A stretch of 64,000 bases of DNA, from NCBI RefSeq assembly GCF_018687895.1, contig NZ_CP061307.1, positions 1,695,948 to 1,759,947 on the forward strand, given 5' to 3'. Below the pieces are notes generated by a model. The model was given only the letters and a program-made list of their open reading frames with translations. It did not search any database and was not told the origin of the DNA. The translations under genes and the position numbers were made by a program. Positions 1,501-8,258 of this stretch are shown here, one piece after another (the stretch's first letter is position 1; each line of letters starts with the position of its first letter). This DNA is from Polynucleobacter sp. JS-JIR-II-50. Lineage in GTDB: Bacteria > Pseudomonadota > Gammaproteobacteria > Burkholderiales > Burkholderiaceae.

Positions 1501-1857
1501 AAGACCAATCCCTACTATTTTGATTGGGCCAAACTTAGTTAAATAGGTATTAGCCGCCGTTCCTTAAGGCAATTACCCCATCCTTACTCTAAGCAAGGAT
1601 TATGGCAGCCGACTGGTAACAGCCCAAAAGAGACTAAATTAAATCTCATACCAGCATTAGCAATTATTACCGAGCTCCGGCAATATGGCCATGAGAGTCT
1701 CGGGTATCAATGATGGTTTTAAACCCAGTGACCGAGTCAATAGTCTCACTATAGATGCCCTTGATAAGATTTATATTTACTGATTTCTCTGGGTTATATT
1801 GTGACTGCTGGACGAGGAACTGCTGCTGAGGTTGCTTACACGCTTTGTGTCACAGAA
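1501..1857. other. Intergenic stretch with a possible coding remnant
   Basis: No intact gene is visible here. Two short plus-strand pieces look protein-like: an open stretch of about 30 codons from the ATG near 1693, and about 20 codons around 1789-1860 containing the peptide GRGTAAEVAYTL, which recalls the glycine-rich nucleotide-binding loop of LOG/TIGR00725-type Rossmann proteins. They lie in different frames and are separated by stops. This may be a decayed gene; the family match is a guess from a very short motif. Confidence 0.25.
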
Positions 1858-1890
1858 AGAAAAACGACTTAGGAATTTCTCCCTAAGTCG
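1858..1890 (-). terminator. Rho-independent terminator behind the split tRNA
   Basis: On the minus strand a 9-bp stem (arms 1882-1890 and 1865-1873, CGACTTAGG/CCTAAGTCG) with an 8-base loop is followed by a T tract (TTTTTCTTT). It starts 10 bases after the CCA end of the tRNA 3' half at 1901. It is therefore most simply the original terminator of the ancestral tRNA-Ile gene that followed rpoD. Confidence 0.8.
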
Positions 1891-1900
1891 TCGATATTGC

Positions 1901-1945
1901 TGGTGGGCCCACCAGGACTTGAACCTGGGACCAAAGGATTATGAG
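1901..1945 (-). pseudogene. tRNA-Ile(CAU) 3' half, intron-less (attR-like)
   Basis: Read on the minus strand, this is the anticodon loop CTCATAA followed by the 3' anticodon strand, variable loop, T arm, acceptor 3' strand and encoded CCA of a tRNA. The 40 bases 1901-1940 are identical to 5171-5210 in the complete copy. Here the anticodon runs straight into the 3' exon with no intron. Sequence upstream of the loop does not match a tRNA. It pairs with the 5' half at 5655-5693: joined at the shared CTCATAA the two would make a normal tRNA. Confidence 0.9.
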
Positions 1946-2000
1946 AGCAGAGACCCATGATAGAGCCATATAAACAGTGGGTATGAGGGTGGTCAGCGTC

Positions 2001-2011
2001 GGCGTGTAAGC
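2001..2011 (+). repeat. Arm-type repeat near attR
   Basis: GGCGTGTAAGC, matching 10 of 11 bases of the tandem repeat GGTGTGTAAGC at 5556-5577 near the opposite end of the element, and lying 56 bases inside the tRNA 3' half. Such paired repeats inside both ends resemble integrase arm-binding sites; the role is inferred. Confidence 0.35.
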
Positions 2012-2040
2012 ACTTGTGCGATAAAAAACACATCTCCCAA

Positions 2041-2349
2041 TTAATCAAATTTAAAACGCTTTCGTAGGGTTGCATTACCACCAGCCGCGCGATTGGTCGA
2101 GCCACCATTGCCATTAATTATCAAACTAGTGTCTTTGGTTTGTACTTTACTGGCTGGAGTTGAGGAAGACAAAGCCTGGCTTTCATTGGCATCCCCTTCA
2201 TTCTTGGAGGTACTATGAATCACGGTGTTATTTTTTTGAACAGGAAATACCCTTGCTTTATCCACATCCCCGATTTCATCATTTGCTGACGCAGCCCGTA
2301 TGACTTGAAAAAAGAAAAAAGTAGCAACCTTAAATCTATTGATTTTCAT
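2041..2349 (-). CDS. Small exported protein of unknown function
   Basis: A 102-residue product with a short basic start, a hydrophobic core rich in Phe and an AxA-type end (RAASA) near residue 22, so probably a signal peptide. The rest is Ser/Asn/Thr-rich, polar and low in complexity, ending in a basic RKRFKFD tail. It starts 2 bp after the DUF1501 stop on the same strand and so is probably the third gene of that operon. I recognise no family. It could also be the end of a decayed longer gene. Confidence 0.5.
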   Translation of the reverse strand: MKINRFKVATFFFFQVIRAASANDEIGDVDKARVFPVQKNNTVIHSTSKNEGDANESQALSSSTPASKVQTKDTSLIINGNGGSTNRAAGGNATLRKRFKFD

Positions 2350-2351
2350 GA

Positions 2352-3560
2352 TTACGCTTTTTGATAACTGAAGGCTTGATTTAAAAACTTTTGATAATCT
2401 GTAGTAACAGCTAGGTCAACACCTCGATCCAGTCGTTCGGTACTCAGCCCAGGCCACTGCCCCATTACCCTACCGCCGGGAACATTACTTCCCATAATGA
2501 GTCCAAGAGATCCATGGCCATGATCAGTTCCGTTACTTCGATTACTGCGCAACCGTCTTCCAAACTCAGTCATTACCACCAATGTATAGGGTTGTTTTTT
2601 AGCTTCCATATCCTCAGAAAATGCCGCAAGACTTGTACTCAGATTTTTAATCTGTCCATTGAGCCTACTGGGCTGATTTTCATGCGTATCCCACCCTGAC
2701 TGATCTACCCAAGCATACTGAAGACCTACGTTCGCATCTATTAATCTAGCAACAGATCGAAGCCCAACGCCTGGATCAGCATTCGGATAAGCAGTTTTCC
2801 CAGCGCTTTCATATGGGATCGGTTTATTAGATCCTTTGGTGAGGGTTTGATTAATGAAATCTAAATTACTCAGATGATCTTTCATCCAAGGCGTAGATAC
2901 TGTGTTGGAGTCCGCATTACATAATGCACTGACAGCATTAAATCCTCCTACGCTATTTGGCAATGCAATCCCATTTTGAATATCTCGAACTGCAATCGCT
3001 CTATGGGCACCCTGCATCGACCTTGGAGAGTTATTGTTTCCAGCAAATAACGGAATTGCGTTCTTTTGAAATCGATCTTTCGCAATAATTTGCCTTGCCA
3101 TCCACCCCAAATCATCAGGTAATGTATTTAGGGAATTTATACCGCGCTCCATAATTTCTTGAGCCTCAAAGTGCGATCGAGTCTCATCCATAATGCCTAA
3201 TGCTGGCCATGCAATCAATTTTCTCTGGGCAAATAAATTGGCTAGAGGCGCCGCCTCCGGATGCCAAAATAAATTAGCACCTCCTGCTTCGACCCTACCG
3301 CCGCTTACTTCTAAAGAAAAACGCATCTCTGGTGGCCTTGCTGCCAAGAAATTTTCATCTTCGAGCGGCGACAAAATAGAGAGTCCATCAGCACCGCCTC
3401 GCAAAAATACGACTATAAAGGGATGCAACATCTGCGGGGGCACCAATATACCAGCAGACTTTTTTTGATCAAGCGAAAAAGCAATGTCACTAATACCAAA
3501 TAGAGGGGTGGCTAAACCAATTTTTAGGAATGTGCGGCGATCAATATATTTCACATTCAT
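2352..3560 (-). CDS. DUF1501 domain protein, TAT-exported
   Basis: 402 residues. The N-terminus has a twin-arginine signal (RRTFLK, Arg8-Arg9, then a hydrophobic stretch), so it should be exported folded to the periplasm or cell surface. The body matches DUF1501, a family with an alkaline phosphatase/sulfatase-like fold: the FLRGGADGLS segment near residue 55 and the C-terminal TEFGRR...DHGHG motif are characteristic. The enzyme activity of the family is not established. The start codon overlaps the DUF1800 stop by 4 bp (ATGA), so the two are translationally coupled, and this DUF1800-DUF1501 pairing is common in bacteria. It is cargo of the element at 1939-5661. Confidence 0.9.
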   Translation of the reverse strand: MNVKYIDRRTFLKIGLATPLFGISDIAFSLDQKKSAGILVPPQMLHPFIVVFLRGGADGLSILSPLEDENFLAARPPEMRFSLEVSGGRVEAGGANLFWHPEAAPLANLFAQRKLIAWPALGIMDETRSHFEAQEIMERGINSLNTLPDDLGWMARQIIAKDRFQKNAIPLFAGNNNSPRSMQGAHRAIAVRDIQNGIALPNSVGGFNAVSALCNADSNTVSTPWMKDHLSNLDFINQTLTKGSNKPIPYESAGKTAYPNADPGVGLRSVARLIDANVGLQYAWVDQSGWDTHENQPSRLNGQIKNLSTSLAAFSEDMEAKKQPYTLVVMTEFGRRLRSNRSNGTDHGHGSLGLIMGSNVPGGRVMGQWPGLSTERLDRGVDLAVTTDYQKFLNQAFSYQKA

Positions 3561-5029
3561 ATATTCTCCCCAGCGTAAAAATCAGGTTCAATTGCCTCGG
3601 TCTGAAATGACGGTGAACAAGCAAGATAGCCAACCATTTTTCTTGCCACTTTTGGATCACTGACCCGCTCAATTCCAGTTAATCCCTGTGAACGTATAAG
3701 TGCTTGCGATAACTCAGGTCTTGATTGACCAAACAATGGGGTTTCCCAACGCGATAAAAGTTGAGTGTAAGTAGGGCTAGAAGGAAGATTAGCAAAAGGA
3801 TTCCATTCGCCAGTACCCCACCAATTTTCAGCAACTCCCTGAATCAGGGTGATCCTCTGTTTGAGGTATGCGGCAGATAGATTCCATTGCAAACCATCTG
3901 GCGGACCGTCAGGTGAAATCCAGCCATATAGAGCAGGCCCTGCGGACTCGACTTGAGGCATGATTTTTCCTTCAGAAAGATCAAATGGCAGGTTTACTGC
4001 ATTTACGAAAGCGGCAACAAGTCGCATTGGCTTTCTTACTTTTTGACGACCTTCTTTGGGTATCGATGAAGCTAGCTTTGCAATGTGCCTAGAAAGAAGG
4101 CTTAATTGATTTGGCGCGTTTCGATGCTCGACAAATACCGCATGCGCACTTTGAATCATCTTTTCTGACGGCTCATCGCTAATCATACGCTTGATTAATT
4201 TTCGCATTAAATGCTGCGCGGTAGCGGAATGAAATGCACATAAGTCTAATACTTTTTTACCATCTTTCATCGGGCCACTATAGGGATCAAATTCATTTGC
4301 CAGAATTCTTTTCTGGTAGTTATCATGCCACGACTCTAGGTAAATAAATTGGCCCGTCTTTGGAAGACTTTGTCCGCCGCCAATACCAGTGCCATCCTCT
4401 ACCGTCCAGCCAGTAAATGCCCGAGCAGCTTCATATACGTCTTGATCTATATAGCCCTTTGGCTTACCCTGTAACGCCCCGGGCACTTCTCGCCACTGAG
4501 CATACAAATTATTTAAATAAGAATGACGTCCTAAAGTGTGTAATTCAAACAATTCTCTTGCGTAATTCTCATTCGCACTTCCCGCGCGAGAACTTTTATT
4601 ATTTAAGTAATACAGCATACAGGGATGGGTTGCGGTAGCTTCTAGAAATTTTCGAAAGTTGCTAAAAGCATTCTTCCGAATGACTTCATTCTCCCAATGC
4701 GGAAGAAATGCACCGACATTCTGCTCATATCCATAGACGGAGAAATGATCCCTCCAGAAACTAATCCACTCCTCTTCCCAATAACTTTTAGCTTGAATAG
4801 CCTTTATTAAAGTGGCGGCCAGCACTTCTTTTCTGGGGCGAGATCTTTCAGGTGGTGGTAATAATTCATCTTTGCCAGTGTACTGAAAGAGCTTTGGAAT
4901 GCTGGCATTTAATAAGCTCAATGGTTTTAATTCATCAATTGCAGGATACTCTTTACCATCTCTAAATTTTCCCGCAGGGTACCGCTCTCTCAGTAGTACT
5001 TGATTGACATCAATATTCAACGTTGGCAC
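3557..5029 (-). CDS. DUF1800 domain protein, N-terminus probably missing
   Basis: 490 residues with typical DUF1800 blocks: a W..FWRDHFSV motif near residue 88, the N-E-N-Y-A-R-E-L-F-E-L-H-T-L-G segment, and a FTGW block. DUF1800 proteins are usually encoded beside DUF1501; both functions are unknown. The only start upstream is a GTG at 5029, with a stop in frame a few codons before it and a purine run (AAAAAGG) abutting the codon rather than spaced as a Shine-Dalgarno. The usual family opening, with a signal peptide and a LLNRxTFG-like motif, is absent. The gene may be 5'-truncated or have a divergent N-terminus. If truncated, DUF1501 could still be expressed through coupling. Confidence 0.8.
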   Translation of the reverse strand: MPTLNIDVNQVLLRERYPAGKFRDGKEYPAIDELKPLSLLNASIPKLFQYTGKDELLPPPERSRPRKEVLAATLIKAIQAKSYWEEEWISFWRDHFSVYGYEQNVGAFLPHWENEVIRKNAFSNFRKFLEATATHPCMLYYLNNKSSRAGSANENYARELFELHTLGRHSYLNNLYAQWREVPGALQGKPKGYIDQDVYEAARAFTGWTVEDGTGIGGGQSLPKTGQFIYLESWHDNYQKRILANEFDPYSGPMKDGKKVLDLCAFHSATAQHLMRKLIKRMISDEPSEKMIQSAHAVFVEHRNAPNQLSLLSRHIAKLASSIPKEGRQKVRKPMRLVAAFVNAVNLPFDLSEGKIMPQVESAGPALYGWISPDGPPDGLQWNLSAAYLKQRITLIQGVAENWWGTGEWNPFANLPSSPTYTQLLSRWETPLFGQSRPELSQALIRSQGLTGIERVSDPKVARKMVGYLACSPSFQTEAIEPDFYAGENI

Positions 5030-5134
5030 CTTTTTAAACTGATGATTCAGTATTTAACAAAATAAATGAGGCAGGCACACAATAAATTTACACCAAATGA
5101 ATTAAGTTTGGGGAATAAAAAGCGATGGCCAAAT

Positions 5135-5160
5135 AAAAAATACCAACCCGAAGGTTGGTA
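5135..5160 (-). terminator. Terminator of the intron-bearing tRNA-Ile
   Basis: Minus-strand hairpin with 8-bp arms TACCAACC/GGTTGGTA (5153-5160 and 5141-5148) around a TTCG loop, followed by a T run at 5135-5140. It begins 10 bases after the encoded CCA of the complete tRNA. Confidence 0.85.
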
Positions 5161-5170
5161 TTTTCATTTC

Positions 5171-5461
5171 TGGTGGGCCCACCAGGACTTGAACCTGGGA
5201 CCAAAGGATTCCGGTTTGTGTTAGTTTCCTAACTCCCTGGACTATGCCTTCACCATATGCTTGCGCACTTAGGTGGGTGCCGTCTAGTCTCTACACCTTC
5301 AACAGCACTTTCATACTGAAGCTTGGCTCGGCGTTAGCTTGTGCAGCTTTTGGCTGAATTTAGCTTTCTCCGAATTTGACACCATCCCTTATGCAGTTTC
5401 CACGCATAAGGCACAACTTTCGCTATGAGTCCTCTGCTCTAACCAACTGAGCTATGGGCCC
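5171..5461 (-). tRNA. tRNA-Ile(CAU) interrupted by a group I intron
   Basis: The exons (5425-5461 and 5171-5210) fold into a full cloverleaf: acceptor GGGCCCA/TGGGCCC with encoded CCA, D arm GCTC/GAGC, anticodon stem GAGGA/TCCTT, loop CTCATAA, T arm CCAGG/CCTGG. The CAT anticodon could mean Met or the AUA-reading Ile whose C34 becomes lysidine. Tight similarity of the intron to the one in Azoarcus tRNA-Ile(CAU), and the position downstream of rpoD, favour Ile. The intron sits directly after the anticodon T36. This is the only complete copy in the window; the ancestral copy is split at 5655-5693 and 1901-1945. Confidence 0.95.
5211..5424 (-). ncRNA. Group I intron (self-splicing ribozyme), Azoarcus type
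   Basis: 214 nt with no reading frame. P1: exon CAT pairs with the guide GTG at 5412-5414 (T36 opposite G, the conserved splice-site wobble), extended by intron AGC/GTT around a GAAA tetraloop. P2 is CCTTATGC/GCATAAGG with a GAAA loop. The core contains GGGATGGTGTCAAATTCGG, GCCGAGCCAAGC, and AGAGACTAGACGGC, which holds the guanosine-binding part of P7. P9 is a stem with a GAAA loop, and the intron ends in the required G at 5211. These blocks match, nearly base for base as I recall it, the 205-nt Azoarcus tRNA-Ile(CAU) ribozyme; peripheral stems differ. Splicing should need only GTP and Mg2+. Confidence 0.95.
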
Positions 5462-5470
5462 TAAAACTTT

Positions 5471-5577
5471 CATTTACTACACACCTTTTGAGGGGTGCTT
5501 TACTTCTTAAAACCACACTAAAACCGCATTTACTACACACCTCGGTTTTTACCTTGGTGTGTAAGCGGTGTGTAAGC
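5471..5577. repeat. Cluster of direct and inverted repeats (arm-site-like)
   Basis: Two copies of a 16-base direct repeat (CATTTACTACACACCT) at 5471-5486 and 5527-5542, and a tandem pair of GGTGTGTAAGC at 5556-5566 and 5567-5577. The first pair read on the minus strand also contains AGGTGTGTA, so all four share GGTGTGTA in two opposed pairs. They lie inside the tRNA 5'-half boundary, and a near copy lies inside the other end (2001-2011). This arrangement resembles integrase arm sites of a tRNA-targeting tyrosine recombinase. No protein-coding gene lies between 5462 and 5654. Confidence 0.5.
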
Positions 5578-5621
5578 AATTTTGACTACCTAATTCACCA
5601 CTAACCTCTTGAATCTATTGA

Positions 5622-5639
5622 GGTCTTTGTTACAAGACC
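5622..5639. repeat. Short inverted repeat near attL
   Basis: Arms GGTCTT and AAGACC around a 6-base centre, 16 bases inside the tRNA 5'-half junction. It might be a protein-binding site of the recombination complex or a weak hairpin in read-through RNA from rpoD. Confidence 0.3.
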
Positions 5640-5654
5640 CCTTGGGCTTCTTTC

Positions 5655-5693
5655 TTATGAGTCCTCTGCTCTAACCAACTGAGCTATGGGCCC
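5655..5693 (-). pseudogene. tRNA-Ile(CAU) 5' half (attL-like)
   Basis: Read on the minus strand: acceptor 5' strand, D arm, 5' anticodon strand and the whole anticodon loop CTCATAA of tRNA-Ile(CAU). The 37 bases 5657-5693 are identical to the 5' exon at 5425-5461. After the loop the sequence departs completely, with GAAAG where the tRNA has TCCTT. It begins 12 bp after the rpoD stop codon, probably the native site of the tRNA gene, and would be transcribed with rpoD. Confidence 0.9.
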
Positions 5694-5705
5694 GTTAGTC
5701 TTGGA

Positions 5706-8258
5706 TCAATCTTCTTCGAGGAAGGTCTTGAGTTTGTCGCTACGGCTTGGGTGACGCATTTTTCTCAGGGCCTTAGCTTCAATCTGACGGATACGCTCAC
5801 GAGTCACGTCAAACTGTTTGCCGACTTCTTCGAGGGTGTGATCAGTGCTCATCTCAACACCAAAGCGCATACGCAATACTTTTGCTTCACGTGGTGTCAA
5901 TGAATCCAGAACGTCTTTCACCACATCGCGCATAGAGTCATGTAATGCCGCTTCAGCTGGAGCCAATGTGTTGCCGTCTTCAATGAAATCACCTAAATGA
6001 GAATCTTCATCGTCACCAATTGGTGTCTCCATGGAGATAGGCTCTTTAGCAATCTTCATGATCTTACGAATCTTGTCTTCAGGAATCTCCATCTTCAGTG
6101 CCAAAGTTGCTGCATCTGGCTCATGACCAGTTTCTTGCAAGATCTGACGGCTGATACGGTTCATCTTGTTGATCGTCTCGATCATGTGAACAGGGATACG
6201 AATTGTACGGGCCTGGTCAGCGATAGAGCGAGTAATCGCCTGACGAATCCACCATGTTGCATAGGTAGAGAACTTATAACCACGACGGTATTCAAACTTA
6301 TCTACCGCCTTCATCAAGCCAATGTTGCCTTCTTGAATCAAGTCCAAGAACTGCAGGCCACGGTTGGTGTATTTCTTAGCGATGGAGATTACCAAACGTA
6401 AGTTGGCTACTGTCATCTCACGTTTCGCTTCACGGGCACGCTTCTCGCCAGCGATCATCTGCTTGTTTACTTCTTTTAATTCTGGAAGTGGAATAACAAC
6501 ATTCTTCTGAATATCAATCAACTTTTGCTGAAGTTCTTGGATGGCCGGAACGTTACGCTCCAAGAGCGCGCTGTAAGGCTTGTTCTCTTTGAGCAACTTC
6601 TCAGTCCAAGTCAAATTCATAGACATCTTAGGGAAGTCTTTTAATACTTCACTACGATTGACGCCGACTTTGTCTACCAACAAGCTAACGATGCCACGCT
6701 CAAGTTTCCATACTTGGTCTACTTGTGAGCGCATGGTGTCGCATAACTTCTCGACGCTCTTCGCTGTCAAACGGAAACCAAGTAACTCAGCGCGAATTGC
6801 TTCTTGTGCCTTCAGATACGCAGGGCAGTTATAACCATCCTTATCAAACGCACGGCGCATCTTGTCGGCTTGTGTGCGTACGATTGCAAACTTCTCTAAA
6901 GAAATCTGCTTCAACTCTTCTAATTGCTTAGCGTTAGCCGTTGCAGCGCCACCACCGCCACCGCCGCCTTCATCTTCACCACCGTCGTCTTCACCCTCTT
7001 CGGCATCCGGATCAACTTCTGGCTCTTCAGGTCCAAGCTTAATATCTTCTGCGTTAGGATCAACTAGACCATCAACAAACTGGTCAATCTCCATCTCGCC
7101 ACTAGCGATCTTGTCAACGTTGCTCATAATCTCAGCAATCGTTACTGGGCAAGCAGCCAAAGCCATCACCATATCTTTGAGGCCGGCCTCAATCTTCTTC
7201 GCAATGACGATCTCGCCTTCGCGAGTCAGCAAATCAACTGTACCCATCTCACGCATGTACATACGTACTGGATCGGTAGTGCGTCCAAATTCTGAATCTA
7301 CTGTAGATAAAGCAGCTTCAGCCTTTTCTTCAGCCTCTTCTTCGGAAGCTGCAGCTTCTGTGTTGTCAGACAGAATTAAGGTTTCAGCATCAGGTGCTTG
7401 TTCGTAAACAGTAATGCCGATGTCGTTGAGCAAGCTAATCAAGGTTTCTAATGCGTCCGCATCAGACAACTCGTCAGACATCACGTCATTCATCTCACCA
7501 TGGGTTAAATAGCCCTTGGACATACCCATCTTGATCAAGGTCTTCAAGCGTGCACGACGTAATTCTTGCTGCTCTTCAGTACCCAACTGCTGTGCTGCGA
7601 ATTCTTTTAAAAGCGCCTTCTCTTTAGCCTTACGCTCACGCGCTTTTTGACGATCCGTTAATACTGGCTCTGCATTTTCCGCAGGGGCATCCGCCTTTGC
7701 TTTACGGCCACGCTTCTTTTCATCTTCAGCTACTGGCGCCTCAACTTCAGCAACCTTGGCTTTTTTATCTTTGGTTTCTTTTACTTCTTTAATTGGTTCA
7801 GCCTTAGGTGCAGGTGCAGCTTTACCTTTTTTTAGCGGCTCAACTTTGACTTCTGCTTTTGCTGCTTTTACAGGGGCTTTGGCAACTGGCTTAGCAGGTA
7901 CTTTTGCCGCTGGCTTTGCAACTGCTTTTGTTGGTTTTGCTGGTGCTTTAGCCGCAACCTTAGGTGCTGGCTTTGAGACAGCCTTCACTGGCTTAACTGG
8001 TGCTTTAGCTTTTGGGGCTGGCTTAGCTGGAGCTTTCGCTTTCGGCGCTGGTTTAGCAGCAACTTTTACTGGCTTAGCAGGAGCTTTCGCTTTTGGGGCC
8101 GGCTTAGCTGGTGCCTTTGCTTTAGAAACTGGTTTGGCTGCAGCCTTTACTGGCTTAGCTGGAGCTTTTGCTTTAGCCGCTGGTTTTGCAGCAGCTTTTA
8201 CTGGTTTAGCTGGAGCTTTCGCTTTTGGAGCTGGTTTTTTGGTCTTGGTATTCGGCAT
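5706..8258 (-). CDS. rpoD: RNA polymerase primary sigma factor, sigma-70
   Basis: 850 residues, much longer than E. coli RpoD (613). Order: a Lys/Ala/Pro repeat region (about residues 5-145), a charged linker, region 1.1 (about 220-300), region 1.2 ([11 protein letters not shown] near 329), an acidic non-conserved insert with a run of glycines near 433, region 2 including the -10-binding helix ([16 protein letters not shown], near 673), region 3, and region 4.2 with its helix-turn-helix ([14 protein letters not shown], near 815). It directs core RNA polymerase to housekeeping promoters. Last protein gene of the rpsU-yqeY-dnaG-rpoD cluster, with its own 234-bp upstream gap. The extension is typical in kind for Burkholderiales, though large. 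Confidence 0.97.
7825..8240 (-). repeat. Lys/Ala/Pro repeat region in rpoD
   Basis: In-frame degenerate repeats encoding units such as [15 protein letters not shown], roughly 10-15 residues each, over about 140 codons. The DNA repeats are imperfect at synonymous sites. The product resembles histone H1-like AlgP/PhaF tails and should be disordered and strongly basic. Confidence 0.85.

Follow-up and report, generated by a model that had tools for sequence, protein, structure and literature searches.

A tRNA-Ile(CAU) gene of Polynucleobacter split at its anticodon loop by a small integrase-less element that carries a complete, group I intron-containing copy

In the tRNA-dependent lysogeny of actinobacteriophages, whose targets include tRNA-Ile2-CAT, the core measures 8–17 bp and is, in the excerpted text of that study, described as too short to rebuild the tRNA (Guerrero-Bustamante and Hatfull, 2024, PMC10865867). 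An archaeal model of an intron-bearing attP, the attachment site of a mobile element, suggests in its excerpted form that an added intron could exclude further elements (Sugahara et al., 2012, PMC3293823), and the hypothesis of Randau and Soll, in the brief form in which it is cited in PMC4390854, regards disrupted tRNA genes as being kept for protection against mobile-element integration. A title cited in the latter paper places a group I intron in the pre-tRNA-Ile of Azoarcus, and thus in a tRNA-Ile gene of a related bacterial group. The present study concerns a stretch of 64,000 nucleotides from Polynucleobacter sp. JS-JIR-II-50 (contig NZ_CP061307.1, positions 1,695,948 to 1,759,947; hereafter the window), where the gene for tRNA-Ile(CAU) downstream of rpoD has very probably been split by an integrase-less 3.7-kb element, the host being rescued by a complete tRNA carried on the same element.

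The locus is read on the minus strand, where rpoD (5706..8258, an 850-aa open reading frame, ORF) is followed after 12 bp by the stump of the host tRNA gene, a 5' half of 39 nt (5655..5693). The carried tRNA-Ile(CAU) with its intron (5171..5461) lies 193 bp further on, and behind it come a hairpin, genes for a DUF1800 and a DUF1501 protein, a small ORF, the core with the 45-nt 3' half of the tRNA (1901..1945) and a terminator. An earlier note on this DNA had recognised the perfect 5' half that begins 12 bp past the rpoD stop and the seven bases CTCATAA contained in both halves, on the rpoD side (attL, 5655..5661) and on the distal side (attR, 1939..1945). This 7-bp core is exactly the anticodon loop. 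Joining the halves yields a 77-nt tRNA-Ile(CAU) that equals the spliced exons of the carried copy, again as described before. The 3' half was correctly placed upstream of the stem of a terminator hairpin (1863..1892), although the spacing is 8 bp in our terminator scan rather than 10 bp; in one relative (G086), this flank is also found behind the intact tRNA. The element comprises 3,709 bp between the cores, or 3,716 bp if one core is counted, and the distance from stump to carried tRNA is 232 bp from start to start. Of the two arms of its attachment site, the P' arm (5462..5654), with tandem CTTACACACC repeats, forms the leader of the carried tRNA, and the P arm (1946..2020) adjoins the distal core.

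The history of this site is reflected in other members of the genus. A match to rpoD was found in 169 of 186 genomes, including that of the window, and the regions downstream of it were obtained from 140 of the 168 relatives with such a match (60 of them with a length of up to 20 kb, the other 80 with up to 3 kb), which together with the window provides 141 rpoD loci. An intact intronless tRNA is present in 71 of these, a stump in 65 and an introned tRNA without a stump in two, whereas three are too short. The empty site that had been predicted for relatives is thus in evidence, since G086 displays the pre-insertion arrangement, in which the end of rpoD, both halves and the distal terminator align over 539 positions with a single 1-bp gap located outside the tRNA and none across the rejoined halves. 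Behind the 65 stumps, the next tRNA contains an intron after U36 in 46 cases and after U33 in five, it is intronless in six and not in view in eight; two of the last (G045 and G103) have an introned copy farther on and were excluded from the counts. In all 57 loci, the 5' half that comes next after the first stump is spaced 197–256 bp from it. At the nucleotide level, the DUF1800 and DUF1501 genes were not matched in any of the regions (up to 20 kb) from 60 relatives; their presence at this place in all relatives, which would have told against the earlier proposal, was thus not observed. In three genomes (G039, G075 and G005), an intact tRNA is accompanied by an island of the usual type and a second 3' half farther on, and in two others (L069 in G034 and L084 in G032) an introned tRNA follows directly after rpoD, which a deletion between two 38-nt repeats could explain. 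A second group of these elements was observed in G184 (G184:C1:1598420-1692997), on the strand opposite to the rpoD locus and about 135 kb away from it.

The properties of both ends point to site-specific recombination. A 200-bp segment reaching from the core inwards, which covers the P' arm, finds a match in 80 of the 186 genomes, and an 82-bp segment containing the P arm and the core at the other end finds one in 56. A repeat of the GCTTACACACC type resides in both arms (as seen for the P' arm in an alignment of 28 loci), as expected of integrase arm sites. At 13 places in 12 genomes, picked by eye, matches to P and P' overlap by exactly the 7-bp core, and all 13 of these tandem junctions read TCTGCTCTCATAAGAAAG (TCTGCT-CTCATAA-GAAAG). 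They contain the junction CTGCT-CTCATAA-GAAAG that had been predicted, here in chromosomal tandems rather than in circles. The attP of the element has only this core in common with the tRNA gene, and neither junction therefore restores a tRNA. In 57 loci the core is followed by nine different 7-nt arm starts, some of which (such as GAAAGAA, TCTAATT, AAGATTT and AGGACCT) have clearly different sequence behind them, others being related. Another class of elements makes use of the same core (L169/L292 in G045, L156/L293 in G103, L183, L168 and L110); in these a 404–406-aa integrase adjoins the stump and, in G045 and G103, a tRNA 5' half is located at the far end.

A candidate for the responsible enzyme is found in full-length relatives. 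Among loci of at least 3,000 bases, a family of tyrosine integrases of 448–468 aa is present in 16 of 48 with a stump and in none of 65 with an intact tRNA, with some members being shorter or ended by the edge of the fetched stretch. Seven integrases associated with GAAAGAA arms are 93–98% and two associated with TCTAATT arms 97% identical, compared with 39–40% between both groups. One 468-aa member matches an integrase family in PHROGs (E 3.5e-30), with no match in Pfam and nothing found by a sequence search against solved structures. Searching the entire genus gave matches at E ≤ 1e-40 in 86 of 186 genomes, many of them about 35% identical and located elsewhere. Of the 24 places listed that reach 85% identity or more across 330 residues or more, 21 are found no farther than about 9 kb downstream of a tRNA copy of the same orientation. 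The exceptions are G184 (36 kb), G146 (at a contig end) and G052 (without a tRNA match). We take this family as the probable cognate integrase, against which several observations have to be weighed. The correspondence between arms and integrases is not clean, as illustrated by G126 and G042, which share the arm start TGGACTT but differ in their integrase type, that of G126 being 95% like the protein of G044 (GAGAGAT) and that of G042 82–85% like the GAAAGAA group. The window element itself contains no integrase, the four PF00589 genes of its genome are all located elsewhere than the element, and the cognate enzyme for which the earlier note had proposed a search elsewhere in this genome was not encountered, as no member of the family is detected there at E ≤ 1e-40.

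Smaller PF00589 recombinases of 190–237 aa were rejected as integrases of the element. Several loci contain them next to full-length integrases, and the one that was tested matches the catalytic half of Xer profiles only, for which reasons we treat them as a separate module. In five loci (L114, L089, L116, L077 and L095), a tyrosine recombinase of 190–212 aa consisting only of the catalytic domain is found beside a divergent gene of 286–319 aa, and four of the five contain further genes of 211–221 aa and, where in view, of 264–266 aa. The three such partners that were tested, all in G077, have no match in Pfam or PHROGs families.

The carried gene appears to supply the only tRNA-Ile(CAU) of the cell, the tRNA that reads AUA. 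A search of the whole genome with the 291-nt copy returned exactly three places, the stump, the 3' half and the copy itself. ARAGORN found no tRNA in the window, and Rfam identified 36 in the genome. In the 30 of these that were read, the anticodon CAU occurs twice, in what are by sequence both tRNAs for Met, one elongator and one initiator; the remaining six (82–92 nt) were judged as class II by their length alone. Since no other complete copy was found in the genome, the carried tRNA would be the one on which the host depends. Across the genus, changes of a kind expected from decay affect three of 65 stumps, and the 5' exons of all 57 carried copies are free of them. Local stump and carried 5' exon are not identical in 20 of these 57 loci, 16 of which show a difference at position 6 only, and the recent event or gene conversion that had been suggested from the identity of both halves is not demonstrated. 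The central claim of the earlier note, by contrast, according to which a complete carried tRNA rescues a site-specifically split and intronless gene, is supported by the empty site, the junctions and the sole complete copy.

Two explanations would dispense with such an integration. The anatomy could result from a homologous duplication or an assembly artefact, with no site-specific recombinase involved. The 38-nt 5' repeats could indeed recombine, and the loci in G032 and G034 may be products of this kind. We nevertheless consider this explanation highly improbable, since the same anatomy is found in 65 of 141 loci with its boundary at the 7-bp core and with different arm sequences, and since it accounts neither for tandem junctions of the attP type nor for an integrase family confined to stump loci; it is in addition contradicted by the exactness of the 7-bp cores. 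That the halves constitute a split tRNA joined by trans-splicing, as their perfect preservation in the window's genome might suggest, has next to no probability and was rejected on account of the complete copy and the three decayed stumps among 65 in the genus.

In the mechanism that we propose, a tyrosine integrase would have recombined attP with attB, the corresponding site in the host gene, via the core in the anticodon loop. The window copy would then either have lost its integrase or have been moved by an integrase supplied in trans. Transcription of the carried gene probably occurs by read-through from rpoD, which would apply to the native gene as well. A promoter scan of positions 1850–5800 was uninformative, with three promoters found compared with 7.7 in shuffled sequences and none in the leader.

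A second distinguishing feature of the locus concerns the intron in the carried tRNA. Its presence had been correctly noted, although neither its type nor the fact that it splits the core had been recognised. The 214-nt intron (5211..5424), inserted at the boundary between U36 and A37, matches the group I family RF00028 above the gathering score (5437–5218; 55.1 bits, E 2.9e-11). At its splice boundaries, CTCAT|AGCG...CCGG|AA, a U precedes the 5' splice site and a G ends the intron, in line with the group I rule as stated in the excerpted text of PMC11915505. In relatives, the gathering score was passed by three of three U36 loci and by none of four U33 loci, of which one intron was clearly matched as group I in a permissive test (35.6 bits, E 1.2e-7). 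Both insertion points, after U36 and after U33, cut the 7-bp core. An alignment of 42 U36 copies contains double-sided changes in 23 of 84 predicted pairs, mostly in helices taken for P2, the P5/P6 region and P9. Since many of the sequences are close kin, this covariation shows that the predicted fold is kept under constraint and is no proof of splicing. Together with the family match, it suggests that the carried tRNA matures by self-splicing of a group I intron.

The location of the intron in the core offers a possible explanation for its presence. By splitting the core, it would render the essential tRNA of the element unsuitable as an attB, and it could in this way prevent self-integration of the circular form, loss of the cargo by deletion between attR and the carried tRNA, and invasion by elements that arrive later. 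We consider this the most likely added role of the intron, and assign an even chance to its being a shield that keeps integrases off the carried rescue copy. Consistent with such protection, introns are found in 51 of 57 carried tRNAs but only in two of 73 at the native place (Fisher's exact test, 9e-27, with kinship ignored). The occurrence of two insertion points in the same 7-nt core and the preserved fold of the intron likewise count in favour of a shield. A test that accounts for kinship was based on a tree from 395 bp of rpoD, in which at least 49 changes of the stump state are required. In nine independent pairs on supported branches, about eight differ in the same and none in the opposite direction (median p 0.008, range to 0.07). 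A later element has entered the carried copy in three of nine intronless compared with none of 53 introned cases (p 0.002), in a set that combines loci of the genus with two from outside it that the survey had turned up. In G043, the stump is followed by a second one at 233 bp and then by an introned copy, and in G226, which belongs to another genus, a decayed stump-like segment and two clear stumps precede a U33-intron tRNA of other exon type. G074, where the T arm in the 3' half of the carried tRNA is a different one, probably represents a further re-hit.

There are also findings that speak against a shield. Within the genus alone, the contrast in re-hits amounts to one of seven versus none of 51 (p 0.12), and it is partly built in, because an introned copy that had been struck could not leave the stump signature that was searched for; we thus regard this contrast as suggestive only. 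Six carried copies lack an intron and two loci of the genus contain an introned tRNA and no stump. When 300 genomes were surveyed at the level of the order, 32 of them gave a group I match, and 28 loci were looked at. Among these, 14 were judged by eye to be tRNA-Ile(CAU), nine of them with rpoD upstream, and these nine include one locus with stumps (L246), one with a decayed stump-like segment (L230) and seven with neither. The seven to eight stumpless rpoD-linked loci in other genera imply that introns have spread also without such elements. In L246 and L252, both from outside the genus, the introned tRNA behind the stumps has a different exon type (GGGCCTCTAGCTCATGCTTGG), pointing to a possible transfer between lineages.

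These loci are in part what would be expected if the intron were a neutral hitchhiker, present because the tRNA was captured from donors that already contained it, with nothing selecting for its presence. The rpoD-linked introned loci outside the genus without a recognisable stump (seven to eight of nine) and the carried exons that differ in type from the stump in L246 and L252 would both fit such an origin. Within the genus, however, several types of intron occur although the carried exons belong to local types, and a single arm family (GAAAGAA) carries U36-introned, U33-introned and intronless copies. Moreover, intronless carried copies exist and some of them were re-hit. Hitchhiking in our judgement is quite possible, though somewhat short of an even chance. 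We find it improbable that the intron is kept for another reason, such as hiding the anticodon loop from tRNA-cutting nucleases or regulating the supply of the tRNA. The intron does lie in the anticodon loop, but such roles would apply equally to native copies, of which 71 of 73 are intronless.

The intron itself looks like a target of further elements, as judged from partial copies that consist of its 3' part and the 3' exon. Out of 20 such copies, six have their start at one boundary, before TGAAGGCATAGTCC, and a further eleven start at a second boundary, GACTAGACGG, or up to about 25 nt before it; as for the rest, L266 resembles a diverged intron without such a boundary and two are ended by contig edges. 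The two boundaries lie on what is taken for both strands of P7. In six genomes (G044, G086, G087, G126, G093 and G032), an introned tRNA is found upstream of the partial copy in the same orientation, with about 1–11 kb between them. No integrase was seen in those intron-end cassettes whose ORFs were read. Cassettes with the intron 3' part and the 3' exon as their distal end were noted in L068, L079, L084, L086, L104, L115, L116 and L257–L276, with a near-identical HAD/MFS/GntR-like cassette (named by eye) shared by G044 and G086, and a similar two-gene cassette by G126 and G087. Combining these features, we tentatively envisage an arms race of tRNA, intron and integrases, whose probability we place just below even. 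In this race, group I introns would act as a shield against integrases, intronless copies would be re-invaded, sometimes in trains, as in G226 with its successive stumps ending at an introned copy, and a second wave of cassettes would enter the intron at the putative P7 strands.

The remaining features of the window element concern its cargo and its surroundings. A palindromic, terminator-like hairpin (5137..5164), detected in a terminator scan that listed the plus strand only, is located 3' of the carried tRNA. The cargo consists of genes on the minus strand for a DUF1800 protein (PF08811, 3557..5029) and a DUF1501 protein (PF07394, 2352..3560) and of a small ORF without a Pfam family (2041..2349). 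These are the sole ORFs of the window element, in which no phage genes were seen. A search of genome contigs for DUF1800 gave 20 loci, and the cargo was dismissed as a diagnostic of the element, as six of these that were scanned (L037–L040, L044 and L045) all lack a tRNA piece. The RpoD protein encoded upstream contains a long N-terminal tail of Ala-Pro-Lys repeats (7756–8258).

Collectively, our analysis extends the rescue by a whole tRNA from actinobacteriophages to small elements, which in the window element contain no phage genes and which are spread across a genus. As the essential tRNA becomes a property of the element, the host cannot lose the latter piecemeal. The dozens of loci with stump and copy constitute a natural experiment on the protection against integration by introns in the anticodon loop, and they suggest one reason for the persistence of group I introns in bacterial tRNA genes. 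In the open-licence papers searched, which provide weak evidence of absence, we found no report of such a shield for bacterial group I introns, nor of such elements in Polynucleobacter. Within the reach of these searches, what is new comprises a bacterial form that lacks phage genes, its genus-wide spread, the insertion of group I introns at two points of one 7-bp core and the later insertions into the intron.

With its attL and attR, its cargo and the lack of a recombinase, the window element resembles a CIME, a cis-mobilisable element that is flanked by att sites and devoid of an integrase, from which it differs by carrying a tRNA that the host needs. With the tRNA-dependent lysogeny described in the excerpts of PMC10865867, it shares the tyrosine type of the integrase, a short core and an element-borne tRNA of the disrupted isotype. 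In that case, however, the elements are phages with their own integrase, in contrast to a 3.7-kb element without an integrase or any phage gene seen, and the group I intron that splits the core of the carried tRNA sets our case further apart from PMC10865867, where the word intron occurs in the title of a reference only. As in the model of Sugahara et al. (PMC3293823), to the extent that its excerpts describe it, a tRNA gene with an intron arrives on a mobile element and a fragment of a tRNA gene stays behind. This model relates to a single archaeal locus with an extra intron at position 24/25, whereas the introns described here are bacterial, belong to group I, reside in the core of the anticodon loop and are found across a genus. 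Compared with the hypothesis of Randau and Soll, in the form in which it is cited, the disrupted genes are bacterial and mainly borne by elements, and in distinction from the Azoarcus intron, as known from the cited title, the copies of this genus are mostly located on integrative elements.

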